NCBI GenBank assembly: GCA_032622095.1
Contig: CP136069.1
Coordinates: 187,663,122-187,727,121, forward strand
DNA length: 64,000 nt
Source: Siphonodentalium dalli
Taxonomy: Eukaryota > Mollusca > Scaphopoda > Gadilida > Siphonodentaliidae
Direction: 5' to 3'
Shown here piece after piece: positions 11,040 through 57,229 of the stretch. The translations under genes and the position numbers were made by a program. The first letter of the stretch is position 1; each line of letters begins with the position of its first letter. The notes below the pieces were generated by a model, which worked only from the letters and a program-made list of their open reading frames with translations, searched no databases and had not been told where the DNA came from.

Positions 11040-11102
11040 TCACTGTGCATACTGTGTCCGGAATTCATCCAATATATAAGTAGGAATATGCGCTTCTAAA
11101 GC
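11040..11102 (-). CDS. WASHC5: WASHC5 exon 27, last coding exon (residues 1142-1161)
   Basis: Acceptor CCTTTTCAG. Encodes [20 protein letters not shown] then TGA (11042-11040). [14 protein letters not shown] matches the conserved C-terminus of the family; the last four residues extend slightly beyond the usual end. Confidence 0.93.
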   Translation of the reverse strand, partial: ALEAHIPTYILDEFRTQYAQ

Positions 11103-14100
11103 CTGAAAAGGAAAATGAATGAGTCATTCACACTTTTAGGCTATCGGCATACCACTCATTCACACTGTTAGGCTATCAGCATACCACTTTTTGATTCATG
11201 CAAGATTCGCTAGAATTTCAAAAATTCAAATAATAACTGCTTAAGGTAAGGCATGTGAAGATAATATTAGATTTTCCAAAAGAAAGAGATGAACATTTCC
11301 GAGAGATTATGAATACATTGATATAATAAACTTAACATTTACAGAGCAGACTCAGCCTCTATGTAGCGATGGAAGTAGTGAGAGGTGGATAAAATATATT
11401 TAAACCTTTAACAATTGCAAAAGTAACATGTCTTCAGGGTCAAATATTGTAATGTAATTAAAAAAGATAATTATATCAAGGTGTAAGTTAATATTTGATC
11501 TAGTATTTGTAAATCAGCCCATAATGTAAGCCCAAGTTCTGAAAGTCAATGGTAATATAATTTTTAACCCTTTCATGGCGGGAGCTTCCTGAAATGCATT
11601 CTTTTATATATGTGAGTCTCCTATTATATAAGAGAATATGTTGGCCTAACAACATGTGAGACTTGCATATAAAATATAATGCACTGGCACAGGATCTTTA
11701 ATGCTGCACCAACGCAGCTCCCATCATGAAAGGGTTGAAGACATAGTCATGATTTCAGGAAGCTCCAGTCGTGAAATTGAACTTATTATCTGAACATTTC
11801 CTAAGGGAACTACTCGTCAATGACGCGTTAGTGTAGAAAGGATTAAAGTACCATGATAATATCGATACTAAAATAGCTCAGAGCTTGTAAAGGAACCAAC
11901 ACAAATCTAATTCATAATTTAAACTTACACTTTCCCTATATGATTACTTACCTTTCTAGAAATTCCACTGTAGAAGAGGTATTCTTCTAGGAATAGTAAG
12001 ACGTTAAGTACATCTTGTGACATCTCCTGTTGTTTTGAGCTGAGGGAGATACAGAATAACTGAGTAATATTCATCATGAGTTGCATAAAACTACAGTAAG
12101 TTAAAGGGAACTTTCCATCAATGAGTATTTAGTGAAGAAAGGGTTAGAGCCTGTGTGGTGGTTCTATGCAATGTTTATGATTTTACTTTTGATCTTGGGA
12201 TAAAAATGAGAAGAGATATGTATTCTTTACTGATTCACACAAATCCTGAAAAGTTACCCATAATTCTGCTGTGGTTAAAGGAGTCGATTACTTAGGGCAT
12301 TACTGTAGTTCTATTCGCTTAAAAAGTGGTAGATTGTATGGCCCTTTGATTGTATATGATAGAACATATTATTCTGTAGGTACATATGTTATGATCTGTA
12401 TACCATAGGCCATGCCAAGTCAATTTCCTGTTTATCAGGCCAAAACATTTAGAACAGCATGTGAGCATGTAGTTTTTAATTTAATTTTTAAATTCTGGGG
12501 ACCATGCCAATGAAGCATTCCACCCTTGTATCAGCTAGCTCTGGGTTTAATATGAGTTACCCCGAGACCATTATTACCAAAACAAATGTCCACAAAAGTT
12601 AGTTGATGGACTCCATATGATTTATTTCACCCAATAAAGTATCATTGACACATGAGTTACCCAGACGCAATTCACGATGACGGTAGTGAATTTAGTCGAA
12701 AATTTGAATCCAGAAATAGGTATGTTTGATCTCAGTTCGGAGCTGTTTGTATAAACCGCAAATAAAAAGGTTGCATGCGCAGGGTGTGGGGACCATGCCT
12801 TCAGGCTAGAGAAACAGGTAGTTTACTTTGTGTGGCCTTAAAATGGGTAAGCTTCAACAAGCGATCTAACATACTGACCCAGAAACGTCAGATGCACATT
12901 GGTATGGTACAGTAATGCCTAAATAATCGACTCCTTAACCACAGCAGAATTATGGGTAATTTTTCAGGATTTAGTCGGAAATATGGCTTGTTGCCATTCA
13001 TCGGAAAGCTCTCAGTGAGAGCTTTCCGACTAAATCCTGAAAAGTTACCCATAATTCTGCTGTGGTTAAGGAATCAATTATATAGGACATTACTGTAGTT
13101 CTACATCTGCTATTTCAAATATACTGTAATATGTCTAAGCCAGCCTTGTTAATTAGCAATGGCTATTTGTAAGCTATTCTTAGCCAAGATAAATTTCACT
13201 GAGAGCTTTCCGATGAATGGCAATAAGCCATATTTCCGAATAAATCCTGAAAACTTACTAATTCTGCTGTGGTTAAGGAGTCGATTATTTAGGGCATTAT
13301 TGTATACCTTACCTTGGGGTATCTTCCACAAGCGATCTAATATACTGACCCAGATACGACAGATACACATCGGTATGATATACATTACCTTGGGTAACTT
13401 CCACTATCGATCTAACATACTGCCCCAGATACACATCGGTATGATATACATTACTCCAGATAAATACTCCCCCAGATACATATATCATGATATACCTTAC
13501 CTTGGGTACGCTTCCATCGGTATGATAAACCTTACATTGAGTAAGTTTCCACTAGTGATCTAACATATTGTCGCAGATACACATCAGTATAATATACCTT
13601 ACCTTGGGTAAGCTTCTACTAGCGATCTAACATACTGCCCCAGATACGCCAGATACACATCTGTATTTTCTGAGTGGTATTGTTTAAGTAAGGTGATAAC
13701 CCCGGCAACGAACGGTGGAGCATCCAGTGGATCTGTAAGCTTCTTGGCCATCAGAGCACCTAAATAGAGAACACATCGATATCAGGATAAAGTGTTATTA
13801 ACCCTTTCAGTGCCAGGTCCGATTTTTGTATCAACCTATATACCCTGTGCCAATGCATTCTCTTATATATGCGAGTCGACCATAGGTCGCCTCGCATATA
13901 TAAGAGAATGCATTGGCCAAAAAAAAATTCATCATTTGTTATTATTTTTTACAATTTTTTACAATTTTAATAATTTTTTCTTATATTCTTCAACAGACTT
14001 ATTTTGTAGGTTTAGTGCCAGGGAATCTTACGTTTTTCATGGGCATCAAAATTATTACTTTGAATACTTGGTGATAGTTTTGAGTTATAACATACCCCTA

Positions 14101-17100
14101 AGGTTTTATCCAGTTTGTTTTTAAATTCGCTATAGCATGCTTAAGCATACCCAAAAAAATTCAACCCAAAACAATCTTTAAAAAAAAAAAGAAAGATGAG
14201 ATCGGCCCCTGGCACTGAAAGGGTTAACCCTTCCATGACTGGTGCTTCCTGAATTTTTGCAAAAAACCTGTGGCAATGTATTCTCTTATACATGCTCCTC
14301 GCATATATAAGGGAATGCATTGGCCTAACAATATTTACCTTGATCTTGTAAGCCAGTGCATTCTCTTGTATATGCAAGGCTCCCTATGGGAGACTCGAAT
14401 ATATAAGATAATACACTGGCACAGGATCTTTAATGCTGCACCAGAACAGCCCCAGTCATGAAAGGGTTTAACCCTTTGAGTGCCAGGTCGATTTTTGTAT
14501 CAACCCATATACCCTGTGCCAATGCATTCTCTTATATATGCGAGTCGACCATAGGTCGCCTCGCATATATAAGAGAATGCATTGGCCTAACAATTATTTT
14601 TTTTTTTTTTTTTTTTACAATTTTTTACAATTTTAATAATTTATTCTTATTTTCTTTAAGAGACTTATTTGTAGGTTTAGGGCCGATGAGATCGGCCCCT
14701 GGCACTCAAAGGGTTACAATTATAGACATGTGCTCTTGAGCAATGATATATGGAAATAGGATGAGGGAGGGAGGCTTTTATTCATATTTATCCAACCATT
14801 GTAGAAAGTAATTGATGGAAGGATAATTTTATGGAATAAAATCCTAATATTTTCAAAGAAATCTTACAGCATCTGTCCTCCAATGGCTTTCAGATAAACA
14901 TGAATACCATTACATAGGTGAATGATTTTACTTTTGACTAATAATAAATGATAGTTCATCCAGACACCTCTACATACCAGTAGTTTTGCTGTAGACTAGT
15001 TTTGTTAGCTGTCCTATGGAGAACAGGAACACGAACAATGAGAAGAATGGAAGTCGTTTTGTTGTGACATATATCTGAAAAGATATTGAAAAGAAACAAA
15101 TTATGATTTCATAGTTATTTAAGTGTAAAACAATTGGTTGTCACACAATTATTCCAGAAAGCACAGCTGCACACATGTTGGCACAATGCTAACATTGATG
15201 GTTTCGACGAAAATGCTGGAAATGATAAATCCAACTGGATGTGATATTGACAGGTGTTTGCTCCAACATATAATTGTTACTCCACTCTCAAGATGCTATC
15301 CTACTCTCAGCGCTATGACGTTATATTGTTGCATCATTCCGTATGCTATTTTAACCCTTTCGATACTAAATGAATTCTTCTATCAGTTATAAAATTATAC
15401 ATCAGAATGATCTATTATTCATTGGCAGGGATGTTCAGGTAATTAAAGCAGACAACAAACCAACAAAAAGATAATAAAAGATAATAAATTTAGTGACGCT
15501 GACCAGCGGGGCTAGCATCACCAAATTCATCAGCTGGGGTCCTCAATTTGGGGATATAGAGAAATGTAGAGTAACGCACCCCTATCCCTTATATTATTCA
15601 AGGGACGTGATGGTACATACCAAATATATCTATCTAAACTTATGGAGGGGAAGACAGGGAATATAATTGAACTAGAGGTGTGACAGTCCCAATGGGACTA
15701 CGGATACCCCCCTGTTTTTAAAATACTAAGATGTTTCACATGTCAGTAAACATTTAGTTAAAATAATAAAATAACAGTTCCCATTGCAGGTGTACAACCA
15801 TAACCCTAATCTTAAACCTATTGACCGAAAAATGTAGGAATAAAGCTTGGACAAAATTATGTATGTTGCGAAAAAATTTCTAAATCGAAAAAGGGGAATA
15901 ACTCCACCAAAAAATGTCGGACAGACGTCATAATCGCAGGTGCACAAGTTCCTATGGTACTAAATATCTTTGCCATGTTTTAAAAAAATTTACCGAAATA
16001 TGTAGGAATAAAAGCTCAGACAAAAGTATACATGTGCACAGGTTCCCATGGTGGTTGATGTCTGTGCCAAGTTTCACGACAATTGATCAAAAAACGACTG
16101 AGAAAAACTCCGGACAAATTTGTGTCCACGGACGGACGACAGACGACGGACGGACAAGCTGACTCCAGTATACCCCCCCCAACTTCGTTGCGGGGGGTAT
16201 AACTATAGTGACCCCAACCAAATTACAAAGGTCATGACTTGGAGAGGCCACGGCCTATGAGGAATGCGAACATTAACACAAAGAGAAAGTCTGATGCAAC
16301 AGACATCAGGTCAGGCCTCGGTCAAACTTCGGTCACATATACAAGAGATATCGCTAATGACCCACAAGGTCATTAGCGTATATATAAACCCTACATTAAT
16401 CTACTCTTCAATTAGTTTTGGCTCTTCAGACATATTTGGCAGATGGCAACATCGGCTCGCTAATTAATAAGCGACGCCTTCTTTCCATGGCATCCAAGAT
16501 TGATTCACCATTATGTATTGTTACCCACACCTTGCTGCTTACCACATGATGCTAGATGTGAATAAAATTTATACAGAGAACAGTCTTATTCCTTCACAGA
16601 AACTAAACTAAAAAAGAAGTTTATAAAGATATTAAAAAAAACTTGTTAAATTGATAATAAATATACTTTCCAGAGAAGATTAGGCAGAATGACGTTCCCA
16701 AAAGGTGCAATTAGTGATGCTAGCCCGCTGTGCGGGGTAGTGTCACTAAATTCAACATCTGGGGACCTCATTCTGCACACGTGTTAAGTCTACTAACGAT
16801 GTGTTTCATTGTGGTCCAGGTCATAACAAACTGATATAGAAAATATAATAAACACAACAGTTAACTGTTCTGAGTGGCATACAGTTTTCTCCTCTTGTGA
16901 GATACGACGATTATTCTTACTTCACTAGCATCTCATAAAAATAATGCTCCATATCTCAGTCTCACTTGAGAAGAGAAACCGTTCACTTCTCAGAACAGAT
17001 AGTATTGTGTATATACTGAATAAAACAGATTTGACAATGTGTGATATTTTACCAACCTTGACCACTGGATCATGGAAGCCGGCAGCCTCTAGGAACGAGC

Positions 17101-20100
17101 ATTGCTCATACATTAGTGGGTTATCTTCCTTGTGATTTTGTACGAACCTTGACCATAGGATCATGGAAGCCGGCAGCCTCAAGGTACGAGCATTGCTCAT
17201 ACATTAGTGGGTTATCTTCCTTGGGATAAGGTAGACTCGGATCCTGATAATGACGTTCGATATCTGCTAAAAGTGCACTGAAAAAACATTTAATTTATTA
17301 TTATTGAAAAATAGAGTCAATATCATAATAGTTGCATCATTAAACATCAATTCTATATGGTCTCTAATGTTTGCTAAATTGCTATAGATCAGATCAATTT
17401 CATTTAAAGTCAGATGTAAAAATATATCAACCAAGGTTAAACTACATCTTTCTATAACCATTTACAATGAACAATTAACCTTTTCTATAGTAAACACTCA
17501 TTGATGAGTAGTTATCACATAGGAAATGTTCAGATAATAAGTTCAACAAACGACCATAGGTCATTCTTATTATCTGATCATTTCCCTCAATAAATAGGAC
17601 CCTAATTGCACTTTTATTTGCTTATATTACCTTATACATTCCTTATATTACCTTATACATTCCTCCAAATTAATAAGAGAACATTCCTATGTTCACTTTT
17701 TGAACTTGTTGGGAGAATCCATTTATTATAGAATGGGATAATCTAGCTATTTAAATTTTTGAGCTCTCTCATAGATTTGAAATAAATAATTTTCAATCAA
17801 GTCTGAGTTTACTGTGCCTGTTATTTGCAGAATGAGATCCCCAGAGGGCGAATTTAGTGATGCTATACCACATAGCGGGCTAGCATAACTACATTCACCC
17901 TCTAGGGACCTCATTGTACTTAGACCCAGATTGAAGTTCCCAAATGGTGACTATTGTGATGTACACCCATTGGGAACCTCGATTATGCAATGTGTCGTCT
18001 GCCAATTTGGGGATATAGAGAAATTAAACTAAAAAAGAAATAGAATATATGTGAAAAATTTCTATAGTAAAATGATACTTTCCAGGGAAGATGAGGCCTA
18101 AGCAGAATGAGGTCCCCAGAGGGTCAATTTTGTGATGCTAGCCTGCCATGTGGGATAGCATCACTAATTTCACACTGTGGGGACCTCATTCTGCAAATGA
18201 CAGACACACTTTATAGTCCAGTGCATTTATGGTTTTACCCAGAACTAATTGCAACATAATTTTTTTTTGCTGGAATTGGTACATATACCCTCCATAAACA
18301 ACATACTAAAAATCAGCAAAAATCGGAAAAAGGGAAATTAGTGAATTTCGTGAAAAAAAATTGGGAAAATTTGGTCAAATCATCAATTTATGGATTTTCA
18401 TGAATGTATATAAAAAATTCAAATTTACAAGTCCTACAAATATCATGCCTATTTTGTCGACCACATTTTCCTGAATCCAGAACTGGAAAGCATTCTCAGA
18501 TTCCTTAAGCATTTTTCTAGTGTGCATTCAAAAACGCGTGTTTACCTGTTTTCGGAGCCTTAATTTCGCAGAATGAGCCAAATGCCGTATTATATGGTTA
18601 ATTATTTTAAAAACTAGAGCAAAATTAATGACTTTTTCACTGTTTTAGTAAATTCCTCACAAGATAAAACACAAAATATGATTAATATGTGCATCTATGA
18701 ATAAGGAGAATAAAATATTCTCAAACAAAATGTGTGTTCCATTGTATGGATGGACATAGCCAAATTTGCCTTGACACAGAACTTGTGTGATGAAATGCCA
18801 TATTTGAGGTCATGTAACTCAATAAATTAATATCCATATGCTCTGCTTTTCTCATAACATTTTGAGAATACTAGATTGAACAAATTGTGAAGGAATTTCC
18901 AAATACATTGGTGAAGAAAAGAAAATTATGGTCCTATGAACTCTTAGTCTAGCCTCTTTTCTGAAAATGCTATTTTGGGGCGTTTTTGTCAATTTTAAAA
19001 GGTTTTTAGGTATATTCAGAAAACTTAACGAAAGTTTATTGTGTAAAATTATTTGATCTGTCCTCTTAAATCATTTTTTTGTTGAGAAAATAGCATTTCA
19101 ATGGTTATACCAATGCATGTCACTGGATTTCACTCATCATTTTGGCAACTTACTCCAAATTTGAACAGCAGAAAAATGGGGTAGGGGAAAGCATATCAAC
19201 AAAAACTTCAAAATTATGCATCTTGACAGATCTTGAAGCATAAAACTTTATATTAACAGCTTCTGCTTACATTGTTTTTTCATACATAATATCCTTTGTT
19301 TATGTTTATTGACAGAGCTGTAATATTTTTTGTCAAAATTTGGCAGTGAAATGTCAAATTGGCATTTTGGGATTGTTTTTATACAACATAGCCATAAAAT
19401 TCTAAATGAACGTCCGATAACGTATTAAGCAGTTTTATAATACAACAGGAATGTACACAAACTGGAAGAAAACAACATTGTGTCTGAAATGGCTGTAATT
19501 TGGTGATAATATTACATTTTGTGATTTTTCCTACCCCTATACCAACGTTAAAATTTGGAGTCAGTTTCCTGAAAAATTAAAGAAATCAAGTGACATACTA
19601 TGGCATAACCAATGTTAGGCTAATTTTTAAACACTAAAGTGTTGTGGGAGGAAAGTTCAAATAATTTTACACATTAAAACACCCATTGTGTTTTGTGTTT
19701 ATGGCCCAAAACCTTTTAGAATGGACAAAAATGCCTCAAACTGACATCTTTGGAAACAAGCTAAGACTAGACTAAGTATTCAAAGGGCCATAAGTTGATT
19801 TTCTTAAATAATGTTCTATTATTACCTTTACAATTTGTTTAATCCAACATACTTAAAAGGTTATAAGAAAATCATGGCATATGGGTATTAAATTATTGAG
19901 TTACATGACCTCAAATATTGCATTTCATCACACAAGTTCAGTGTCAGAGGCAAAATTGGCTATGTCCATCCATACAATGGAACACACATTTTGTTTGAGA
20001 ATATAATCTTCTTCTTAATTATAGATGCACATATTAATCATTTTTTGTCTTTAATCTTGTGAGGAAATTACTAAAACACTGAAAAAGCCCTTCAAGTTTT

Positions 20101-23100
20101 TTTTAATAATTAACCATAAATAAGGCATTTTGGCTCATTCTGCGAAATTGAGGCCCCGAAAATGGGCCGAAATCAGGTAAACTCACGTTTTTGAAGGCAC
20201 ACAACTCGAAAATACTTAATGAATCTGGGACTGGTTTTCAGTACTGGGTTCAGGAAATTGAGGTCGACACAATACACATGCGATTTGTAGGATTTGTGAA
20301 TTTGATTGTTTTATATACATCCATGAAAATCCATAAATTGATGATTTGACCAAATTTCCCCAAATATATTTCACGAAATTCACCAATTTCCCTTTTTCGA
20401 ATTTTTGCCGATTTTTAGTATGTTGTTTATGGAGGGTTTATGTACTTATTCCAGCAAAAACAAATTCTGTTGCAATTAGTTCCAGGTTTGGCATTTTTTC
20501 TCATAAATGCACTGGACTATTAATCAGACTTGATTACAATGTAACTAAAAGTCCATAATTGTCCAAAACAACAACAATAGATTAAATTACAAAGTGTCAA
20601 GTCTTAAGGTCTATCTTATCCAAATAAATTAATACAAAATCAAGCATGCAACATGTGAAGTATTTCTAGAAATGCATCTTATGAATTCTTGATAGATCAA
20701 TGTGCTAAGGGCAATGTGTGGTAATCAAGCCACAACGTGTTTTCATACATTGACAAGCTCCTGTTTGTTTTAGATAATCAGGATGATAATTTACCTGTTG
20801 AATGTTTGTAAAGCACTGGCTAAAAACTTTGAATCAAATTTACAGGACATGTTTAATTCTTGAGCGATCTGCTTCCTGAGTAGTTGTAATTGGCCAACCT
20901 AAAAATGATTAGATATTTAATTAGTCATATCAGAAAATAATTTGAAAAGGGAGATATCTAAAAAAAAATAGACATATTGGAAAATAATTAGACATATCAG
21001 AAAGGAATAGCGCATATCAGAAAATAATTAGACACATCAAACAATTGCATGTAACATGTTCTATAAAATACTTTTAATTTGTGATGGTCTATTATTCATT
21101 AATTTCGTGGCTTGGATCAACATCCATCGAAAGAATTTGAGTATCAATATACAATGTACGAGATGAAATTGAAGACCGGGGATATATCTGTTTTCAGCAT
21201 GTCATAATGTTTCAGCCCTGTTAATTGCCGTCGACTATCGACTGACCAAAGAAAATATCATAAATTTTGCCAGCTATATTTTAGTCAAGGAAAATTTCAG
21301 AACCTGTTTTTTTTAGCAAAATTGAAACATTGCTGCAGAGAATGTCTTAGTGTCGCACTGTGGACATTTTTGCTAATTAACAGGGATGATGTTTACAGTT
21401 AGCCATTCAAGCAAAGATAGCAAGACAAAACTTGCAGTTTCATGCTGTTTGCATTTTGTTTTCCGTGAAATCAAATGGCAGTTCGATTGCAAACACCAAG
21501 ATAGATCATGAGGTGCTTTCCCACCAATAATATTTTTATAGCGACCCAAGTAAGAAATATAAAATCTAAACCCATCCAATATAAAAAGTAAGTAGTATTA
21601 GGTACATGCTTTGCATACAGGGGTATACAGCTTTAATTTTCTCACCCGGAGTATTATATCTAAGAAATGCTGGGAGGTTCTGGACATCTTTGATGTTGCT
21701 TGGGAGTAAAGCTTCTGTGGCTGATCTGAAATTCACAAATAATCACAGCAATTAATAATGGCTCCATATAAGTGCGCAACGCTTACGGTACTTAATACAA
21801 ATTCCTCCTTCAATCTCTAACTTCTTTTCAAGCTGTTTGTATGTTATATGTACCATCAGTTCATCTTTTGGAATGAAATAAATCTTGTTTAAACTGATTA
21901 TTTTCTGTTCAAGACTAACACATATGATCCAGTTTTTAATCAAATTTAAACCCTGTGCCAGTGCATCCTCTTATATATGTGAGTCTCCCATAGGGAGCCT
22001 CCCATAATATAGATAATGCACTGGCTTACAAGGTCAAGGTAAGTATTGTTAGGCCAATGTTAAGAAAATGCATTGGCACAGGGTTTTCACAAAATTTAAG
22101 GAAGCTCCAGTCATGGAAGGGTTAACAATTGCAAGACAAAAAAAAGACCAGAGCTCTGAGAAATATCAGCCTCTCATGAATTATTTAACGTAATTCTCGG
22201 AACCAATTGATTACTCTCTATATAATTTATTTCCTTATAAATAACAGTTATTAACTGTACCATTAACTGATTTAATCGATTGATGTAAACAGGTTTATAG
22301 ATAACACTGATTTGGCAAATGAGGTAAATAGGTCTATAGATAACACTTACTAACTGTGCCATTAACTGGTTTGATCGATTTGGCGAATGACGTGAATAGG
22401 TCCATCATATTCTTGTCCCGGAGGACGTTTCTATGAAGAGTGTTCTGGAATGTCTGTAACTCCTTGACAATCATGAAGCTGAGCAATCGGTCGAGACCAG
22501 CCAGTCCAAAGCTTCCTACTGCTCTCTGTGTGGGAAAAACAAGCATCAACTGTTAACCTTCTCATGACAGGAGCTGAGCTGGTGCAGTATTAAAGATCCT
22601 GTGCCAGTGTATTCTCTTATATATGCGAGTCTCCCATAGGGAGCCTCGCATATATAAGAGAATGCACTGGCTTACAAGGTCATAATTAACCCTTTCATGA
22701 CGGGAGCAGTGCTGGTGCAGGATTATAGATCCTGTGCCAGTACTTTCTCTTATATATGTGAGTCTCCCATAGATAGCCTCGCATTATATAAGAGAATGCA
22801 CTGACATATATGGTCATAATTAACTCTTTAGTGATGGGAGCTGCGCTAGTGCAGCATTAAAGATTCTCTTATATAAAGATTCTCTTATATATGTGAGTCT
22901 CCCATAGGGAGCATCGCATATATAACGGAATACACTCACTGGCTTACAAGGTCAAGGTAAATATTGTTAGGCCAATGTATTCTCTTATATATGTGAGGCT
23001 ACTCTCATATATAAGAGAATGTATTGGCACAGGGTTTTTGTGATGTGTTAAAGTGATGTGAAACAATCCGGTATGATGATAAAATAGAAATGGAGAATAA

Positions 23101-41100: not shown

Positions 41101-44100
41101 TATTCACACATTAACCCCTGATTATTGCATGTATTCACACATTAACCACTGATTATTGCATATATTCACACATTAACCCCTGATTATTGCATGTATTAAC
41201 CCCTGATTATTGCATGTATTAACCCCTGATTATTGAATGTATTAACCCCTGATTGTTGCATGTATTCACACATTAACCCCTGATTATTGCATGTATTCAC
41301 ACATTAACCCCTGATTATTGCATGTATTCACACATCAACCCCTGATTATTGCATGTATTCACACATTAACCCCTGATTATTGCATGTATTCACACATTAA
41401 CCTCTGATTATTGCGTGTATTCACACATTAACCCCTGATTATTGCGTGTATTCACACATTAACCCTTGATTATTGCGTGTATTCACACATTAACCCCTGG
41501 TTATTGCGTGTTTTCACACATTAACCCCTGGTTATTGCGTGTATTCACACATTAACCCCTGATTATTGCATGTATTCACACATTAACCCCTGATTATTGC
41601 ATGTATTCACACATTAACCCTGATTATTGCATGTATTCACACATTAACCCCTGATTATTGCATGTATTCACACATTAATCCCTGATTATTGCATGTATTC
41701 ACACATTAACCCCTGATTATTGCATGTATTCACACATTCTGTTAACCCTTCCATGACTGGAGCTTCATGTAGGGATCCCCATACAGGTGGCAGCTTGTAT
41801 TGCTGAGTGTCGTCTGCTCACTTCTGTGAGGGACTCCATAAGGGTAGTTTAACTCTTCCATGACTGGAGCTTCCTGAAACTTTTATCAACCTCGGCTGAT
41901 ATCACTCCAAACTCGGCTGTGGACCCATTAAACATGGCTGATAACGCACAATCTTGGCTGATATAATTTGTGACATCACCAAGTGAAGTATAGTGTTTAC
42001 ATCCAATGTAATAGCCATTCGGAGGACGTAGTCACAGTGATATTCCAATATAATGAGAATTTCTAAATTGACTTGAAATCATGGTGAGTGTTTCATGCCT
42101 TTTCAAACTGATGTTTACTTCCTAATTTCAATGGAAATCATGAATAACTAAATGATCATTACGTGCAAGGTCATACACAAAGTTGCAACTCGTCAATATC
42201 TTATTTAAGAAGTAAATTTAGTGAATTTGATTACATTCTACCTGCTGTCCGTTCAATCTTAAGTTTACACTGATGAACTGATGGATAGTAATGGTATTTA
42301 ATACCATATATTTGATCTCATTAATATTAAGGTTATTACTTTGTTAGTTGAATAAAGGCCGAGATATCAGCCCTCAGTAACTTCATATAAGCCATCGACC
42401 ATTTGGTCTGATATGAAGTTACCTCTGCTGATATCTCTAAATAATATGATATCCCATTCCTGAATTATATTTTAACCCCTCCATGACTGGAGCTGCCTGA
42501 AATTTTGTGAATACCCTGTGCCAATACATTCTCTTATATATACAAGTCTCCCATAGGGAGCCTCGCATATATAAGAGAATGCATTGGCTTAACAATATAT
42601 ACCTTCACATTGAAAGCCAGTTCATTCTCATATATGCAAGGCTCCCCATGGGAGACTTGCATACATAAGAGAATGCACTGGCAAAGGATATTTAATGCTG
42701 CACCAGCGCAGCTTCCATCATGAAAGGGTTAATGCTCACAATTTCATTTTCAAATCACATTGTTTGGTTTTATGAAGGTATATTAACACAATGTCTTTTT
42801 AAAATTGTGAGGTGAAGGAGAAGATCATAGTACCATTTTGACATCAACTAAATGAATGGCTATTTATCAGTGGTAACTCAAAGCTAATGGTATACATGAC
42901 ATCTACAGAAACAAGGAAGTCATTAAAATATCTTCCACCTCATTCTCAACATGCATACCTCCTTGAGTTTAAACTCAAACTGTCCAATATTAAGCAGCAA
43001 CTGGAAGCACACGAGAGGGTTATATTTACTTTCTTGCAGCACTTGTTCACGAATCTGTTTACATCGTTTATTCTGATCTGCACCTAGAAAACAGTTCGAA
43101 GTGAGATATTGTTGTGTCTAAAAAACAATATATGGTAGAATGGGATACTATAAACACTATATATACTGACAAGAGGCCGATCGCGATCGGCAGATGTTTA
43201 ACCTGTCCCTTGGCAAAGGTAAATTTCTATGAGCAGAATCATAATACAGAGTTTTGATGTTGAATTATAGAGTATACTGTTATGATCTAAAGTAGTATAG
43301 ACAAATGTACATAATAACACAAATTATTGGAATTTCAAAATTTAATAAAACATCTAAACTATATAGAGCCTGTCATCACTATTATAGTTTAAGCAGTTCT
43401 ATTTATGTTGTTGCAAATTGCCATGTGAGATAATAAAATGTTTAAATGAGTCTAAGTAATTTCATTGAAGAAATGTTTCTTTTTAATTTTAATTTTATTT
43501 TTATTTAATAAGTTAAAAATAATTAAAATATTTTTTGTTGTTGTTAAATTGAGCAAGAAGTTGAATAAAAAAAAATGAAATTGTTTTTAATTTTGTTTTC
43601 TTCAAAAAAGGGCCATAACTCCATTTTTTTTAAATGGAATCAAACCCATATTCGAACCCTATCTGTATTTTGGGCTGAGACACCCACATACCAAATTTGT
43701 GCCGCTCAAGTGAAAAATATTTAAGTTATCGCAGCATGCATGAAGTCTATGTAAAAATGGGCCATAACTCCATAAAATTAACTCCGATCGAACCCATATT
43801 TGAACTCGATCTGTATTTTGGGCTGAAAAACGGATAGAAAATGTTCGAGTTCGCACCATGCATAAAGTGTCTACAGACAGACGGCTCGACAGACAAAAGG
43901 ATGGATGGACAGATGTATGTGACTGTTGAACTTGTTATCTGAACATGTCCTAAGGGATAACTACTCATCAATGAGTATACAGCATAGAAATGCTTAATTT
44001 TCTTATACGGATTATGAAAGATCTTAGAGTTTTGTAATAAAAAAAAGGATACAGAAATGAAACTTACTTGGTGGTAAAGCAGACGTGTGAAGCATGAGCC

Positions 44101-47100
44101 ATCGTAAGCAGACGTTACTCTCACGCATGATACTCATAAGCTTCTGTATGTTGTCTAGAACGAACTCCTCCATGAGCACACCCTCCTGAAGGTGTTTCTC
44201 CAGGATGGGGTTATATTTACTCAGCGTCTTCGAGTAATTAATAGACTACAAAGAAATTAGAATGATTATCCCTTTCATGATAGCATTAAAGACCCTGTGC
44301 CAGTTGTAATAGCTCACTATGTACGTGCTGTATATAAATAAATGCCTGGCTTACACAAAGTGTGTTTTGTGGATAATATCGCATCCATACTACTTTAATT
44401 GTATAGTCCAACGACATTAATTGTATAGTCCAACGACTTTAATTGTATAGTCCAATGACAAAAATTAATTTCATAGTCCAACGACTTTAATTGTATAGTC
44501 CAACGACTTTAATTGTATAGTCCAACGACTTTAATTGTATAGTCCAACGACTTTAAATTTATTCAACAAAATGTTTGAAATGGTAGAGAGGTATCTTATG
44601 AACATTTTTCTCAAAGCGGTTTGCAATACCATCGCCAATTGTGAAATAAAATCTGGTATGTAGGTTAACAACCACAAAATAATTAATTAATATAGTTAAT
44701 TTATGAATTAACAGATTATTCTCTGCCTAAACATGGTGAAGTTGGCCCTAGTTGGGCTAATTTGCCGCTTATGTGCTTCCTTGGCATTTTTAACCCTTTC
44801 ATGATGGGAGCTGCGCTGGTGCAGCATTAAAGACCCTGTGCTTCGCATATATAAGAGAATGAACTGGCTTACGAGATCAAGGTAAATATTATTAGACCAA
44901 TGTATTCTATTATATATGCGAGGCTCACTATGGGAGACTCGCATATATAAAAGAATGCATTGGCACTGGGTTTTCGAAAAAAAAAACGAGCTAACCACCT
45001 CGTATACGGCGACATCAGACTGTTATGATCTTATATATCCACGAGCTAAGGTAGCAGTACACGATTTCCAGCAATTTTGCCAACCTGGGAGGGGGGTACT
45101 GTCGTTCAAATCAATGCTGAGCCATTATCTTTGGCATAGGTCCCATCAAGCATGTTTTAATTTTGACAGAAATTTTAGGTGTAATCATTTGTCTGTACTT
45201 TAGCTTCTTCGTACAATTTGTTATTGAGTTATGCCCCTTGGTCTGCACACACAAAACGCTCAATTTTACCCATTTTTTTACTCAAATTGACCATTTTCAA
45301 CCCAAAAACAGACCATGACAGCGAATGTCAGTAAATAAGCTTCTTCCACCTGATAGAGCTATGTTAGTGCTGAGAAATATTTGAAATAAAAAAAAAGTTA
45401 TCGTATCAATTTGAAAAAAATGTCTTGCGAGCCCAGATGACAGAATTCAGGGGAGAGAAATCGGGCTATTTTCCTGTAACCAATAACACAGAGTTGGCCT
45501 CCACTGAATACGAAAACCCTGTTGCGTATCCAAATTTTTCAATTTTTTGAGAACTTTCCCAGTTTTGTAAAATAATTAAACCTTCAAACCAGTAAATACA
45601 CATTTAACACAGGCTACACTGGCTGTTATGGCCCCCAGATACTTATTTTTCTATTTTTCAGACCCCCTACAACCCGTGAAATCGTGTACTGCTACCTAAC
45701 CACCTCGGATAATGAACTCCTCCATGAGCACACCCTCCTGAAGGTGTTTCTCCAGGATGGGGTTATATTTACTCAGCGTCTTCGAGTAATTAATAGACTA
45801 CAAAGAGATTAGAATGATTATCCCCTTCATGATGGGAGCTGCGCTGGTTCAGCATTAAAGACATATTATGGACTTGTTCGATTGCGTGAAGTTGATAAAA
45901 TAATACATGGGGAATGTAGCATTCTACTAACATCGCCAAAACTTTCAAAGAAATTGACCATACCACTCCATAGAAAACATCATCTGAATTACGCCCAACT
46001 GTAAATATTTACATCTCGATTCAGTACGCAACTATCGGCGATAATCTAACACAATTGATTTTGCCACCGAGAGTCATTGCATTTAATTAATATATCAGAA
46101 TGATGGTGAGTGTCGTCAATTTGAATTAATATTCATAACAAGCAACAACTTCGAGCACGATTATTCTCAATTTACATTTGATCATCCTGCCAGTGTTTCA
46201 CATCACTTTAAAGACCCTGTGCCAGTACATTCTCGTATATATGCGAGTCTCCCATAGGGAGCCTCCCATATATAAGAGAATGCAACTGGCTTACAAGATT
46301 AAGGTAAATATTATTAGACCAATGTATTCTATTATATATGCGAGGCTCGCTATGGGAGACTCTTATATATAAGAGAATGCATTGGCACTAGGTTTTCGCA
46401 AAATTTCAAGAAGCTCCGGGGATGGAAGGGATAAAAATCAAATTTGAAGAAACTAAGTAAACAATGTAACACAAAGACATTGCATGACTGGCTTATGTTC
46501 TCGGATTGCATGACTAGCTTATGTTCTCCGATTGCATGACTAGCTTATGTTCTCGGATTGCATGACTAGCTTATGTTCTCCGATTGCATGACTAGCTTAT
46601 GTTCTCCGATTGCATGACTAGCTTATGTTCTCTGATTGCATGACTAGCTTATGTTCTCGTATTGCATGACTAGCTAATGTTCTCGGATTGCATGACTAGC
46701 TTATGTTCTCGGATTGCATGACTAGCTTATGTTCTCGGATTGGCCAGTTTTGATAACTAAATTTTTGTTTGTCATGTCATGTTTCAAACAATCATTAGGA
46801 CTGTCCCAATGGAACAAGGAATACAAGTTCGGACAAATTATTCTAAGTTGGAAAAGGGGGATAACTTCACTAAGAAAGTCAGATGGACCTCATAATCGTA
46901 GGTTTATAGATTAGGTTCCCACGGTACTAAAAAAGTTCTATTTATGTTGTTGCAAATTGCCATGTGAGATATTAACATAATATAGTTATTTAATAATGGA
47001 AAAGGTTAAAGGGCATGGAATGGGATTAAATGGGTAGAATGACATATCTCTGCCCTGTTTGATCCAATGTAAGTCTTAAGATCCAAGAACCTAGAGCTCC

Positions 47101-50100
47101 ATTGGTCTAGTTAAATAAATTCACCTGGCTAAGTGGTGGTTTAAAAAATTCAAAAATAAAAATAAAATTCAAAAAAAGCCATAACTCTATCAAACAAAAT
47201 CTGGTCAAACCATGATCGGATGGACCTCATAATTGTAGGTTTATAGGTTCCCAACGGTACTAAAAATCTGTGCCAAGTTTAAAAAAACATTATTGAAAAA
47301 TGTAGGAAAACAAGCTTGAACAAAATTGCATCTATGGATGGATGGACAGACATACAGCGAGACTGATAGATGGAAAAGATGATTACAATATACCTGGTCA
47401 CTGGGGTATAATTAGTAAACATGACAGGTATACATAATGCTCACTGTCATGAAGAATTGATTGATTAATACAAATCTGACAAAATTGTCCACTTTCACAT
47501 TGCAGTCCCTATTCACCCAATTTTATGGTAAGAAGAAAATGAATCAATAGCTACCTGTTCTCTGACATTTGATTGGTCGAGTGTGTTGTTGAGGGCTGTG
47601 AGTGCTGCTTTATAAGGACTCCAGGCATCCAATAGATTCACAGTCATACCCATGTAGATACTGATAACCTACATGTAGAATAGAATAACAACTTAAAATA
47701 TTATCATTCCCACCCTTAAAGGACAGCTATCCTGATGAATACAACAAAATACTATAGGAAAGCCACCCCTATTTATAATTATGGTATAAATAAAATACAC
47801 CCATAGTAGCCGAGAGTGCCAAATTTTCACCACTCGTGGTATTGTGGTTTTAACCACTCGCCAAAAGGCTTGTGATGAAAATTTGGTGTATTCTATGGGT
47901 TTATTACACACTTGTTCCCAGAAGTACAGTGTTATTGCTGTTCCATATTTACAAATACGTATGGAACGTATGTTCCATATGCATCTCGTTGACGTACATG
48001 CCATTCGCCTCAACCATGAAATCGGAACAATAAAATAAAAGCATCATCACAAATGACAAAACACACCCTCTATGTGCCTCAATAAACCTTCTAAGCCTGT
48101 ATTTTAATGCACGGATTCTAGGTCGCGAAGCATGTAATAAACACAGAACGACACGATATGTAAATGGGTTTGTCGATACGGCTCTCATGATGTCGCGGAA
48201 GGATAGAACGAGAGGCGCTTGTCATTCTGCTGAGGTGTAAGCAGAATGAGGTCCCCAGAGGGTGAATTTGGTGATGCTAGCCCGCTATGCGGGGTAGCAT
48301 CACTAAATTCACCCTCTGGGGACCTCATTCTGCAAATGACAGACACCCTATTTCAAGGCTTGATTCTGTGTATGTATTCTATATTTATCTGAAGTCACAC
48401 TTTTTTACTTATCCAAACAATGATGACTAAATTCTGGAACGATGTACTTTCTTAATCAAGTGACAACACTTTACTGCTTTGATATAAGTTGCCGACGAGA
48501 CTTATTTCAATTATTTTGCACATTACCATGGTTCAACTACAATTTTCAATTATGTTAGTGCATGGTTCTTTATATTTTTGTTTCAGATTCTGTTTTCTCG
48601 ATGATCCCATATTTTGGTTTTTCAATTAGGCCAAATTTCAACAAAATGGCAAATAAATTGGCCAAAATATTGGTCAAAAGAATTTCTAAGCCAGCGTGAA
48701 CCCTGATGTCTCTTAAATAAATTATCAAACAACTATCGACTCAGAGTGTAGAAATCTGGAATTAAGAGATTAAAAGATGCTTTGTTGACATCAATATAAA
48801 TTTTGGCTAGCACAACAAAACATTGATACATTTGGGCTTTGATATCATCGGAGATTTAGAGAAGGATTTCCCTTATGAAAGCACAGCTCAGTCGCAACTG
48901 ATTTAATATGAAGTATTTATTTTCTGAAAAATTGACTGTAATTGTAATTTTTTAGAATAAACAGTGTACTTTATATGCCACCTGATTAACATCAAGTATG
49001 CTATATGTTGTTATACTAACCCAGTTGTCTGGAAAATGCTTGTCAACAATTTCTCTCATTTTGGCTTGTTGATTTAGTAGAATATCTGGCTCAAAGTATA
49101 GAATAACATACAGCATACTAGCTTGTGTGGCGAGAGCCGTCGACCTGTGCTCTGGGAGTGGGTATGCTGATATCTGGTTATATATGTCATCTGACCGCAA
49201 TCGACCAATCACCATGTTTATATACTCTCCAAGAATTGGAACTCTCCTAAAAGAGAAATAGACCGAACCACTCACTCATACCTGAATGAATAACATAAGA
49301 AAACTAAAGCAAAGAAACTTCTCATCTATTTATAAAAACTTTAAGCTGTAACCACCCCTGGTCAAGTGGTCCTGCTAATGTGCTATGATGTGGTTGTGTC
49401 CTGCTGAATTTCTATGATGATTTTAGGGAAAACTGATGCTGTTAACAAAAAAGTACCGTTATATTTTTTTATTTGTCTTTTTCGTGGTGTTTAGTGTTGA
49501 AACGATTAGCGATTTTAAGGAATCGACTAGTTGCCAGAGGTAATCGACTACTAGTCGACTAGTCGGAACCCTTCTAAGAGTTCCCGTTTCTATGCCCATA
49601 TGACGTATAAAATGAGCCATGTGGCATCGCAGTTTTGAGTATCCAACTCTTCATTTCAGAACGAAAAGCACGTGAACGATATAATCTCACGTTTTGCCCA
49701 TTAGTCTCCCAATTTGATGTCTTAAACGCGGCTCTCCTGCAACCTCCATATAATCTCACGTTTTGGGGAATGCAGGTAATAAAAACATTTTATTTAAACA
49801 AAATTGTCGCCGGTACCAGGAAATAAATAGGCAAGTCTCGCTAATGAGATGTCGGGTGTGTTCTATTGTATTTCTGAATTGGAGCCTCATGTCGCGGGGG
49901 GAGGGTATGTGGGTATTATAATGATCTAGAATCTATTCAGTTACTGAGTTGAATTTACCAGCTTGACTTGTCGCGAATTATGTTTCGTATATCATTGAAG
50001 CCATTGTGTTGCATCATTACTCTAGTATTACACGTGCCACAGTGAGAAGTTATCACTGGTCAATTGCGTCCCATCGAACTAGACAGTGTTCAGTCGGCAG

Positions 50101-53100
50101 CTATACTTCACGTCTTTGATGATCAACATAAAAGAAACCGCGCCTACACTTGCATACATTGGGTTCAGTTCATGCCATGGAGTTCACCGCCCGTGCATGA
50201 CTGGCAGTGGCATCGTTAAAGGAACAATACAATAAGGCTTTAAGAAGTTAATATGTGTTAACTGTTACATATTATGTGATAATATGGCTGTGCAATGGCA
50301 CTGCTGTCATGATAGCAGATAGGTAGTGCTTTTTCCCACGACTAGTCGACTAGCAGATTTCGGGATCGACTAATTCAATAATCGCGTCGATTTCGACTAG
50401 TCGATTAATCGTTTCAACACTAGTGGTGTTCCAATAATCTGAGAAAAGCCATTATGTATATCAAACATTCAAAATCATATTTATTGCGAAATATTTTTAA
50501 TACTGGTTGTATTAGTTGTTGAAAATTGACTATAATCAAGATGGTTATTCACGTCATTTTAGAAACACCAGCGCAGACATTATTATATTTTTCAAAAATA
50601 GATATGTTCTTGAATGTTTCATACATGCACTGTTTTTTTTTTTAAATCGCTCGGATTAGCCAAACACAGCGAAAATGACAACTTTAGAAAAGATAACGGT
50701 ACTTTTTCGTAACGGCATCAGTTTGCACTAACCGCATCATAGCAATTCAGCAGGACCACCAGCATCATAGCATATTAGCAGGACCACTTGACCAGGGGTG
50801 GTAACAAGCAGCGCTTTGGCTGAATGAATAGGAATCAAGTAGCTACATATTAGCCCCTTTCTTTAACCCTTTGAGTGCCAGGGGCCGATCTCATCGGCCC
50901 TAAACCTACAAAATAAGTCTTAAAGAATATAAGAATCAATTATTAAAATTGTAAAAAAAAAAAAAAAGAAAAAAAAAAAAAGAACATTGTTAGGCCAATG
51001 CATTTTCTTATATATGCTACAAAAATCGACCTGGCACTCAAAGGGTTAATAAATGGATTCTACCATTCAGTTATAATAGAATACATTGAAATGGTCTATT
51101 ATTAATTTGGAGGGATGATCAGGTAATAAAAGCAGACGGCAGACAGAACGAAAAGCTAATACAAGAGCAGAAAGATTCATATTCTTTGGTTAGAAATTTT
51201 CAGATAATAAGTTCAACAATGTTTGAGAATTTATTATCTGAACATTTCCTAAGGGAACTACCCGGTAGTCAATGAGTATTTAGTTAGTATAAATTCATTT
51301 TCATTATAATTTCCATGTTATTTGCATCATTCATAAAACACATGAGTGTATTTTGCAGTAATCTGTGTCTCTAATTCATTCATTTGTTGCATATATTCTG
51401 TTGTGTATAAAAGGAGACGGTCCCATAAATGATCGGATTTAGTGTACAGTACCCCTTTAAGGCTTTAACCCTTTACCCAACAGAAGGGCCCTGTGCCAAT
51501 GCATTCTCTTATATATGCGAGTCGACCATAGGTCGCCTCGCATATATAAGAGAATGCATTGGCTTAACACATTAAAAATTATAAAATTGTTAAAGAATGT
51601 AAGAAAAAATGGTAAAAAGTGTTAAAAAAAGATTTTTTTTAGGCCAATGCATTCTCTTATATATGCGAGGCGACCTATGGTCGACTCGCATATATAAGAG
51701 AATGCATTGGCACAGGGCTAACTGTAACTATCACAATGTGGTCAAGGAGCCGGTTCCAATGATATCCATATGTGTATGGTTTTATTGAGACAGACCAAAG
51801 ATATTTTAGGCTGTTGAAGCTTTATTTGGCCGGTTTTGGCCGGTTTGTTGGGTAAAGGGTTAAGTGATTAGCTAAATAAATAATTGAAATCAAAAGTATA
51901 CTGATGTGAATATTCATTAACTATTGAACGTCCCCGACAACGGAAACAAGAATAAAATGGCATGTTGGACTCACCCGAAGAATGACTCTGGATACCCTGC
52001 AGGTCGCTTAGTCGGAATGTACCCTGTACTCCTCAGAAGTTTGCACACATCATCAATGTTTGAATCAGACGCCGAGGATTTCTGTGCACTATTGAAGAAG
52101 GCAGAAGACATATAATTTTTATACAACAAGCAATTTGTAAATAATCCAAATATTACATTTAACCCTTTCATGATGGGAGATGTGATGGGGCAGCATTAAA
52201 GATCTTGCGCCAGTGCATTCTCTTATATATGCAAGTCTCAAAAAGGGAGCCTTGCATATATAAGAGAATGCACTGGCTAACAAGGTCAATAAATATTGTT
52301 AGGCCAATGCATTCTCTTATAAACCAGTATGTGAGGCTCCCTATGGGCGACTCACATATATAAGATAATGCATTGGCACAGGGTTTTTGTAAAATTTTAG
52401 GAAGCTACAGTCATGGAAGGGATAAAGTAATGTGAAACATCGTAATGGAGAGTTCAGAATCACAATGAGATCAGTCTTGCTTAACACAGTTAATTCCATG
52501 AGCCTTGTTGCCAATTTTACAAAAAATATATCCAGGACATTTAATGTTTTTGAGTGGATACCAAACATTATCATGAGTGAACGAGAAAAATGTTTATAAA
52601 CATTTTTCAAGAATGACACACTTTTCGGTATCCACTCAAAACACTGGATATTCTTTTTATTGTATGCGCTTGCAAAGAAATTCGCCATTTATGACGATAA
52701 ATATTCTTACAATTGCCTTCAATCGATGTGTCAAAGCCAATAGCATATCACTGCCTGTTGACTTAACCATCTACCAGAATAGAGAAAAAAAGTTCCCGTA
52801 TGTTCCGTTTATTTCCCCCATTATTGTGTCGAAACGAAAAAAAATTTGTAACATACTAATAACAGAAAAGAATAACTCAACTGGTTGGCACGGATTTTGA
52901 AATATTCTGGTAGCGCAATGGTATATACACGCAAGTGAATCAGTCGCGCAAGTGAGTGTGAAATTTTAAACTTCTACATCCCCTTCTGGGGGATATCAAA
53001 ATTTATTTAACCCTTTGAGTGCAATAAACCTACAAACCTACAAAATATGTCTGTTAAAGAATATAAGAATAAATTATTAAAATTGTAAAAAAAAAAAATA

Positions 53101-56100
53101 AAAAAAAAAATTGTTAGGCCAATGCATTCTCTTATATATGCGAGGCGACCTATGGTCGACTCGCATATATAAGAGAATGCATTGGCACAGGGTATATGGG
53201 TTGATACAAAAATCGACCTGGCACTCAAAGGGTTAAGCACCATTTTTTCAATAAATCACATAAATCAGCAAAATGAGGTCCACAAAGGGTGAATTTGGTG
53301 ATGATAGCCCACTGTGAGGGATAGCATCACTAAATTCACCCTCAAGGGTGATCATTTTGCAAATGACAGTCACACTATTTCAAGGGTTGATACCACACCA
53401 AACTTGAGGTTGTAGGCCCCATTGTTGTGGGGGGACAAAATCAATAACATTGGCAACATCGCTGGGTACATGGAGATTTGATACCAAGAAGTCTCTTTCT
53501 GAAATCAACATCCAGGTATCAAGTCTCAATTTACCCCAATGTTTCCAGAGTTAACATATATTAATTGATTGGGGTTTAACTAAGCAAGCAACTAAGGTCA
53601 TATCATGACATTGCCAGTTTTACTGGTGGAGGAAATCTGTACATTTACGGCTAATCTTACAGTGATTTCAATAGCTGATAAACTCGTCGACAATGTGCTG
53701 CAAACCATTGGCGAGTAACTGGCAACTCCACCAGATAACGATTTCGAGTTGCAAAGTCCATGATGAAAACATGGATTTCAACCCTTATCGCCAGCGCTGG
53801 AGGACGAGGCTTGGAGTTGTATCCCTAACCTACTGAGCCACCAAGGCGCTTAGATAACTTATAATGTACACTGAATAGATGACTGTTGAATTACCTGTAT
53901 CTGTAGTATGAGACAAGAATTCTCTCCCTTATTGTGCCCTCAATTTTCTTGTCAGTCACCAACAGCATAACCCCATATAAGTAGAGGGCTTCACACTATA
54001 AATAGAACGATAACCGTTAAATTATATAAAAGATTACTTAGATTTGCAAATATGGATATCATTGGAACCGGTTCATCGACCACATTGTGATGGTTACAGT
54101 TATGCCCTGTGCCAATGCATTCTCTTATATATGCGAGTCGACCATAGGTCGCCTCGCATATATAAGAGAATGCATTGGCCTAAAAAAAAAAAAAATTTAA
54201 CACTTTTTACCATTTTTTCTTACATTCTTTAACAATTTTATAATTTTTTCTTACATTTTTTAACAATTTTTATAATATTTTTCTACATTCTTTGACAATT
54301 TTATCATTTTTAATATGTGTTAAGCCAATGCATTCTCTTATATATGCGAGGCGACCTATGGTCGACTCGCATATATAAGAGAATGCATTGGCACAGGGCC
54401 GTTCTGTTGGGTAAAGGGTTTGCACCACAAATAAATTAATTATAAATAATTACGAAAATGAGTACTCACACCAGACTAGCTATTTTCAGCTTGGACGTTA
54501 AAATCCATAACATTCAATGTTAATCTTCAAAGTGTTAAAAAAAAAAATTGAAAAAGTGCCATAACTCCCTTAAACAAAATCTGATCAAACCCATATTTGA
54601 ACTTTATCTGTATTTTGGGCTGAGAAACACATAAAAAAAAAATTTCCGACAAGCTAAAAAATGTTTGAGTTATCGCACCATGCATCAAGTGTCTACAGAC
54701 AGAGAGATGAACAGACGAAAAACGAGTGGCCAATCCAGACGTCATCACTATGTGTACCATACTATGGTATGCATACACATAAAAAGTAAATATTTGTGTG
54801 TAATATACCAGTAATTGCTTGCCATCATCGTTGAGTAGAACACTCTCTAGTGTTTGCTGTATGTACACTCCCTCCTCCAAATCTTCAAGGAACCTGAACG
54901 AGAAGAGTATGATGATATAAATACCCGATTTTACTGGGAAAACCACTCAGGATTATTAGTAATATGTGTCGTGATAATGTTTAGATAATAAGTTCAACAT
55001 ATTATCTGAACATTTCGTAAGGGAACTACTCGTCAATGATACAATGATATGTGAGCAGACGATGATAATACAAATGCAGAAGAATTCATATTTATTTTAG
55101 ATAATAAGTTCAAAATATTATCTATTTCCAAAGGGAACTACTCGTCAATGAGTACATGTATTCTGTATAGAAATGGTATATGCAAGCCTGAGTTTAGTGT
55201 GCCTGTAATTTGCAGAATGAGGTCCCCAGAGGGTGAATTTAGTGATGCTATCCCACATAGCGGGCTAGCATCACCAAATTCACCCTCTGGGGACCTCATT
55301 CTGCTTAGGTCTCATCTTCTGGGAAGTATCTATAGTCTCAAATTAACATTGTTAGTTACTTTTGCCTTCTGTTCAGTGTCTATATATCCTAATTTGCATA
55401 AGATAAATGGGAGACATAGACCCTAATTGAAGTTTCCAAATGGTGAATATTGTGATATACACCCATTGGGAACCTCGATTAAGTAATGTGTTGTCTGCCA
55501 ATTTGGGGATATAGAGAAATTAAACTAAAAAAGAAATAGAATCTTTGTGAAGAAGTTTCTATAGAAATTTGAAAACAATGAAAGTTTCCAGAGAAGATAA
55601 GGCCTAAGCAGAATGAGGTCCCCAGAGGGTGAAATTAGTGATGCTATCTAACATAAACTCAGGCTTCTTAATATGGAAGACTTTGATACCTGAAATTGCC
55701 TACCTTTTATCTGAATGAAATCTAGTGTGTTAACTTACCTGTTAAGATCGGTAACATATTTATGTATGCTGGAGAATAGTACCTGTTAAGATCGGTAACA
55801 TATTTATGTATGCTGGAGAATAGTACCTGTTAAGATCGGTAACATATTTATGTATGCTTGAAAAAGCTTGATAAAATCTTGTAAGGATCTCAATATTGTT
55901 CTCCCGGAACTCTTCATCCAAGTCCTGGAGTTCCTACAATCAAGAGACACATGATTTTAGGCATTATCATGTTACCTATATAAAGCAGCATTTTCAGACA
56001 GGCAATGTGAATGCGTATCTCATACCCTATGTCTAACTAAATATCCCACATTTCCAACGAATAGTAATATTTTAAAAGTCATATATGCAACTAAATCATG

Positions 56101-57229: not shown

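Follow-up and report, generated by a model that had tools for sequence, protein, structure and literature searches.

Why are the ends of several exons of one gene, together with their splice donors, copied into the introns that follow them? The initial annotation of a 64,000-nucleotide stretch of the genome of the scaphopod mollusc Siphonodentalium dalli (contig CP136069.1, positions 187,663,122 to 187,727,121; hereafter the window, whose own numbering is used below) reported such copying in WASHC5, and raised the possibilities that duplications across the genome start at AG|GT junctions and that the copies are intermediates in the birth of introns. The assembly comprises 2.23 Gb in nine contigs, the listed contigs being 190-301 Mb long.

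The gene occupies window positions 57229-11040 on the minus strand. Reading of the sequence, with exons joined at splice signals, yields a model of 27 coding exons supported by exon matches, with a continuous, stop-free frame of 1,161 residues. The predicted product matches the Pfam Strumpellin profile from end to end (1617 bits, profile positions 1-1084), and this full-length domain in an open frame identifies the gene as WASHC5, which encodes strumpellin. For the N-terminal 468 residues, no solved structure was matched.

Duplications across exon edges of WASHC5

A search for ungapped self-matches at distances of up to 400 bp confirmed that six exon 3' ends of WASHC5 are copied, along with their donors, into the next intron: 6 of the 26 donors (exons 2, 14, 16, 20, 23 and 25) are spanned by a local duplication, and all six are located at introns of the gene model. 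The same search found none of the 26 acceptors to be spanned. The AG|GT is repeated in the copies at exons 2, 14, 16, 23 and 25.

All these features are on the minus strand. The exon 2 array (55736-55858; exon end at 55827) consists of 2.8 copies of a 44-bp unit, that is, three near-complete units that are identical across their shared part, with the donor copies reading, in order, AACAG|GTACTA, AACAG|GTACTA and AACAG|GTAAGT; by eye, the first donor (GTACTA) looks weaker than the last (GTAAGT). At exon 14 (32958-33025; exon end at 33014), a duplication with a lag of 37 bp, in which 30 of 30 matched bases are identical, was missed by the repeat finder and read from the sequence; its second copy is broken by a transposon-like insert. 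The unit is bounded by the motif AAAGTAC, which opens it and recurs past the second copy and the insert, a layout that suggests slippage between short repeats. The array at exon 16 (28434-28645; exon end at 28636) begins with a step of 27 bp, after which come about nine of 20 bp, making about 10 copies counting the functional one. At exon 23 (17040-17228; exon end at 17148), a 91-bp unit is present twice; each copy includes about 75-80 bases of exon, and 75 of 80 such bases are shared. Diverged copies are found at exon 20 (22236-22398; exon end at 22351), where the copy at +99 crosses the donor and has lost the GT and an exon piece recurring at +68 does not cross the donor, and at exon 25 (13304-13666; exon end at 13603), with copies at +67, +102, +214 and +290.

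The 5' edge of exon 8 had also been reported as copied. The copy of this acceptor and exon edge is real (45711-45833, minus strand, for an original at 44281-44159; 120 of 123 bp identical) but it is not adjacent to the exon, lying 1,552 bp upstream of the original and outside the range of the scan. Two other arrays approach exons of the gene without crossing their edges: 21 copies of a 44-bp unit (35745-36667) begin 28 bp past the exon 13 donor, and a 23/31/37-bp array (40732-41738) stops 22 bp before exon 10.

When random points were placed in the introns of WASHC5 itself, 1.3 per 26 on average fell in a first copy, and at least six did so in 0.09% of 20,000 draws; when repeats were masked and each array was entered once, there were 6 edge arrays at 52 junctions compared to 0.6 expected. 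Relative to the donor rate in the sample of other genes described below, 6 of 26 donors corresponds to P = 0.001 and, taken as 6 of 52 junctions, to P = 0.03. These values, like those from its own introns, are after the fact because the gene was picked for showing the pattern. The fair test is an independent gene sample.

Donor copies and the reading frame

In all six cases, the first donor copy gives a continuous frame. We extended the exons to 18 downstream copy positions and found that the GT is kept at 17 of these, in line with the suggestion that donor-bearing copies are tolerated and retained. All 18 copies bring a stop codon, in each case over 55 nt upstream of the last junction, and thus, judging from the frame, the full-length WASHC5 protein requires the first donor copy, which is presumably the one used in RNA. 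Purging of decoy donors from old copies was also considered and set aside: among the arrays as a whole, several old copies lack the GT, too few to separate purging from ordinary divergence.

Exon edges in other genes

The comparison sample was chosen by protein family, blind to repeats, and includes dynein heavy chains, cullins, CYFIP, Nckap1 and adaptins, with further dynein exons forming batch 2. For batch 1, we dropped 8 of 89 dynein matches (near-identical copies on contig C3), 1 of 17 matches from one family search and 2 of 30 from another (long open frames); of the 190 exons remaining, 186 were fetched, four adaptin stretches on C9 being left out, and removal of a cullin duplicate at C1:31.17 Mb and of exons without both candidate sites left 176. 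For batch 2, 96 + 64 matches were reduced to 136 by dropping 3 near-identical ones on C3 and 21 of a paralogue cluster on C5; 92 were fetched, in a choice that favoured short multi-exon stretches and hence compact introns, and 2 of these had no usable pair of sites, bringing the total sample to 266 exons. Myosin matches were left out because of their many near-identical paralogues.

Exon ends in the sample were inferred from profile matches and from a donor and acceptor matrix built from WASHC5; sites that scored below 4 on this matrix or were too near the end of a stretch were excluded, leaving 232 donors and 225 acceptors (457 junctions). The duplication scan was ungapped, with lags limited to 400 or 250 bases, and the 'genes' of the bootstrap are 300-kb bins. 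The excess figures on which we rely are array-level counts, with each array counted once; the profile of copies by distance is separate.

Edge arrays are present at 22 of the 457 junctions, or about 1 exon edge in 20, and are spread over 13 of the 40 gene bins, so that the claim of a pattern extending across the genome, beyond WASHC5, is upheld. The closest parallel to WASHC5 is Nckap1, whose main bin has such arrays at 4 of its 14 donors and 2 of its 14 acceptors, and whose other bin has them at 0 of 1 donors.

Several side observations were made on these families. In Nckap1 (C7:207.14-207.22 Mb), the introns near the edge duplications are also rich in arrays. The region C4:274.2-275.5 Mb contains many myosin-head exons with near-identical scores, which suggests a large tandem family of myosin heavy chains. 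Dynein heavy chain exons at C3:24.99 Mb and 57.83 Mb have equal scores and opposite orientation, with scores close to those at C6:62.04 Mb; these C3 pairs are either recent segmental duplicates or a matter of assembly.

Excess over intron sequence

The explanation that we favour as the probable one combines frequent duplication of this kind across the whole genome with tolerance of those events that carry an exon edge into an intron. Small tandem duplications (with units of about 20-145 bp at exon edges) would arise often in this genome, probably through replication slippage or microhomology-mediated repair, and some would grow into arrays. When a duplication straddles an exon edge, the copy nearest to the exon body would retain the old junction and the frame, and the extra copies would become intron, so that the event would be tolerated, with selection removing wholly exonic duplications. 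The outcome would be exon edges echoed into introns at donors and acceptors alike, with WASHC5 as a gene in the upper tail. In its favour, introns bear arrays of this type away from junctions as well (17 near and 30 far, at lags of up to 100 bp). We infer the mutational route and the near-neutrality of the copies.

Plain neutrality, however, predicts only about 5-6 edge arrays at the 457 junctions, and the 22 that are seen count against this explanation: the rate at edges is above expectation, and therefore uniform duplication plus tolerance is not the full explanation. The expectation, calculated from the frequency with which a unit of a given length should land on a junction and with each array entered once, is 5.1-5.7, which makes the excess 3.8- to 4.3-fold (gene-bootstrap range 2.0-6.6), or 3.4-fold (1.7-6.1) without Nckap1. 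For copies that are at least 95% identical, 13 were observed compared to 4.4-4.8 expected (fold 2.7-3.0, range 1.5-5.1). Batch 1 alone yielded 16 edge arrays against 3.5 expected. In compact introns (92 junctions), there were 4 against 1.4 (P = 0.052) and, for near-identical copies, 3 against 0.5 (P = 0.017). With repeats masked, edge-side copy coverage is 4-5% within 40 bp of the junction, 2% at 40-80 bp and 0.5-1.6% beyond. These counts, together with those of WASHC5 (6 against 0.6), would be expected if tandem duplication truly had its hot spots at exon edges, for instance owing to effects of chromatin, methylation or transcription, with the edge arrays surviving selection, a reading that we regard as rather unlikely given the following considerations.

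Batch 2 alone is weak, with 6 edge arrays against 2.3 expected and a bootstrap range of 0.7-6.6. The size of the excess also depends on the baseline. Counting the far copies of edge arrays as interior raises it: at its highest, with the far copies of every array counted, the fold falls to 2.2-2.3 with the stronger mask (bootstrap range 1.3-3.2) and to 2.6-2.9 with the weaker one. Furthermore, repeats, which thin out toward junctions, dilute the introns, the repeat-masked share rising from 12-15% at 0-30 bp to 42-48% at 100-300 bp, and the mask is incomplete, with about half of one tested intron stretch having high-identity copies elsewhere. Finally, decay would be slower when one copy is exonic, by reasoning up to about two-fold, which could explain part of the excess. 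Transposon dilution and the slower decay of half-exonic copies could jointly account for much of the excess at edges. An exon-edge excess of roughly two- to four-fold is nevertheless likely to be real; it may be mutational or partly detection-related. That the duplication process of this genome is aimed at exons, copying their edges outward several times more than unique intron sequence and supplying a stock of duplicated junctions, is in our assessment unlikely.

The window introns themselves contain identifiable repeats. A transposon-like repeat of about 930 bp in intron 5 (49491-50424), part of the tested stretch just mentioned, has 38 further near-full copies of 87-98% identity, plus one partial copy, among the 40 candidates scored genome-wide. 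A short hairpin element (GCCAATGCATTCTCTTATATATGCGAG...), which is likely a MITE-like family, is abundant, for instance at 32580-32960, and often lies near CCCTTTACCCAACA / GGGTAAAGGG ends.

Donors, acceptors and the birth of introns

The initial annotation had proposed a comparison of repeat overlap at donors with that at intron positions. As described above, exon edges do exceed the intron baseline, but the excess is not specific to donors. Among the other genes, with arrays counted once and lags of up to 150 bp, edge arrays include 9 of 232 donors and 13 of 225 acceptors. A donor preference had seemed strong in batch 1, where donors were ahead both at lags of up to 100 bp (11 of 154, compared to 5 of 150 acceptors) and at lags of up to 200 bp (11 of 154, compared to 8 of 150); it failed in batch 2 (0 of 78 donors, 5 of 75 acceptors) and is absent when the batches are pooled. 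The claim that donors are special thus does not hold.

These counts bear directly on a donor-specific process, in which duplications would be seeded at AG|GT and would be intermediates toward new introns. In the Rogers model, as outlined in PMC3443670, a stretch of coding sequence is duplicated and the resulting pair of AGGT motifs comes to delimit an intron. Such a process would agree with the six donors and no short-range acceptors affected in WASHC5, with the lead of donors in batch 1 and with the repetition of AG|GT in young arrays; we consider it very improbable and largely refuted, on account of the acceptor counts as well as of the structure of the units. Over the 22 edge arrays, the exonic share of the unit varies from 0.08 to 0.92 (mean 0.46), with the junction located anywhere inside the unit, the pattern that unconstrained breakpoints would give; the ends of the units lie away from the junction, contrary to the idea that AG|GT is where duplications begin. 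None of the sampled exons contained a duplication entirely within it, an absence that removal by selection would produce. In 81 introns, the donor region resembles the acceptor region no more than in shuffled pairs (mean score 5.68, compared to 5.63 for the latter), with 1 of the 81 reaching a score of at least 10 (a score of 11) at a shuffled rate of 0.0029 per pair. These two results do not support the suggestion that the copies may be intron-birth intermediates. Arrays that straddle acceptors share the layout of the potato case discussed below, and by this analogy intron births there are possible.

Assembly artefacts that inflate or create copies are a most improbable explanation: some copies, such as those at exon 2, are identical and could be misplaced by assemblers, but several arrays carry diverged copies, a genome search placed the 271 bp around the exon 2 array at a single location, as far as that search shows, and genes on several chromosome-size contigs show the pattern too.

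Relation to known duplications at splice sites

The nearest parallel among the published cases considered is the potato RdRp gene, where, as presented in PMC4974935, a duplication that crosses an intron-exon boundary made a new intron. The tandem duplication of a segment that carries splice signals and crosses such a boundary is common to both cases; the potato event yielded a newly spliced intron, whereas those described here only lengthen an intron that is already present, and the WASHC5 copies are mostly on the donor side. In human genes of segmental duplications, internal tandem repeats at exon-intron boundaries have been described, and inspection by hand left 27 modifications of introns (De Grassi and Ciccarelli 2009, PMC2812944). 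The repeats reported here likewise are tandem and overlap exon edges. As portrayed in that source, the human repeats are variable, belong to young paralogues and have transcript support, whereas ours are in conserved genes and known from the DNA of one assembly; unlike in that study, as far as its description goes, both exon edges were counted here against an intron baseline.

Dual-specific AGGT splice sites in tandem repeats of UBC and VCX3A have been proposed as a route to new introns (Duan 2024, PMC10809524). The arrays described here similarly contain AG|GT, a potential donor or acceptor. The UBC and VCX3A introns, as they are described, lie within coding repeats and have lengths that are multiples of the unit; the WASHC5 repeats, in contrast, are at the intron edge, with units of 20-91 bp. 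In Drosophila, novel intron positions have been attributed to tandem duplication (Lehmann 2010, PMC2891723), which resembles the present case in the regional duplication of a segment with a proto-splice site. According to the portion of that account considered here, those duplications were within coding sequence and became introns, whereas ours include none wholly inside a sampled exon. Among the titles and abstract openings listed, in a search that mostly did not extend to subscription literature, we found no published report that tandem duplications are in excess at junctions generally.

Should the surplus of edge arrays hold up once the whole genome is annotated and its repeats are masked, the duplicated junctions of this genome would be many natural experiments, at several stages of decay, on the choice of the spliceosome among identical neighbouring sites and on the rate at which duplicated junctions turn into introns. 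If the excess fails, the data still show that a high rate of small duplication can copy about 1 exon edge in 20 in conserved genes. If the duplication process is in fact aimed at exons, duplicated junctions, including those that straddle acceptors, could let introns lengthen, slide or be born.
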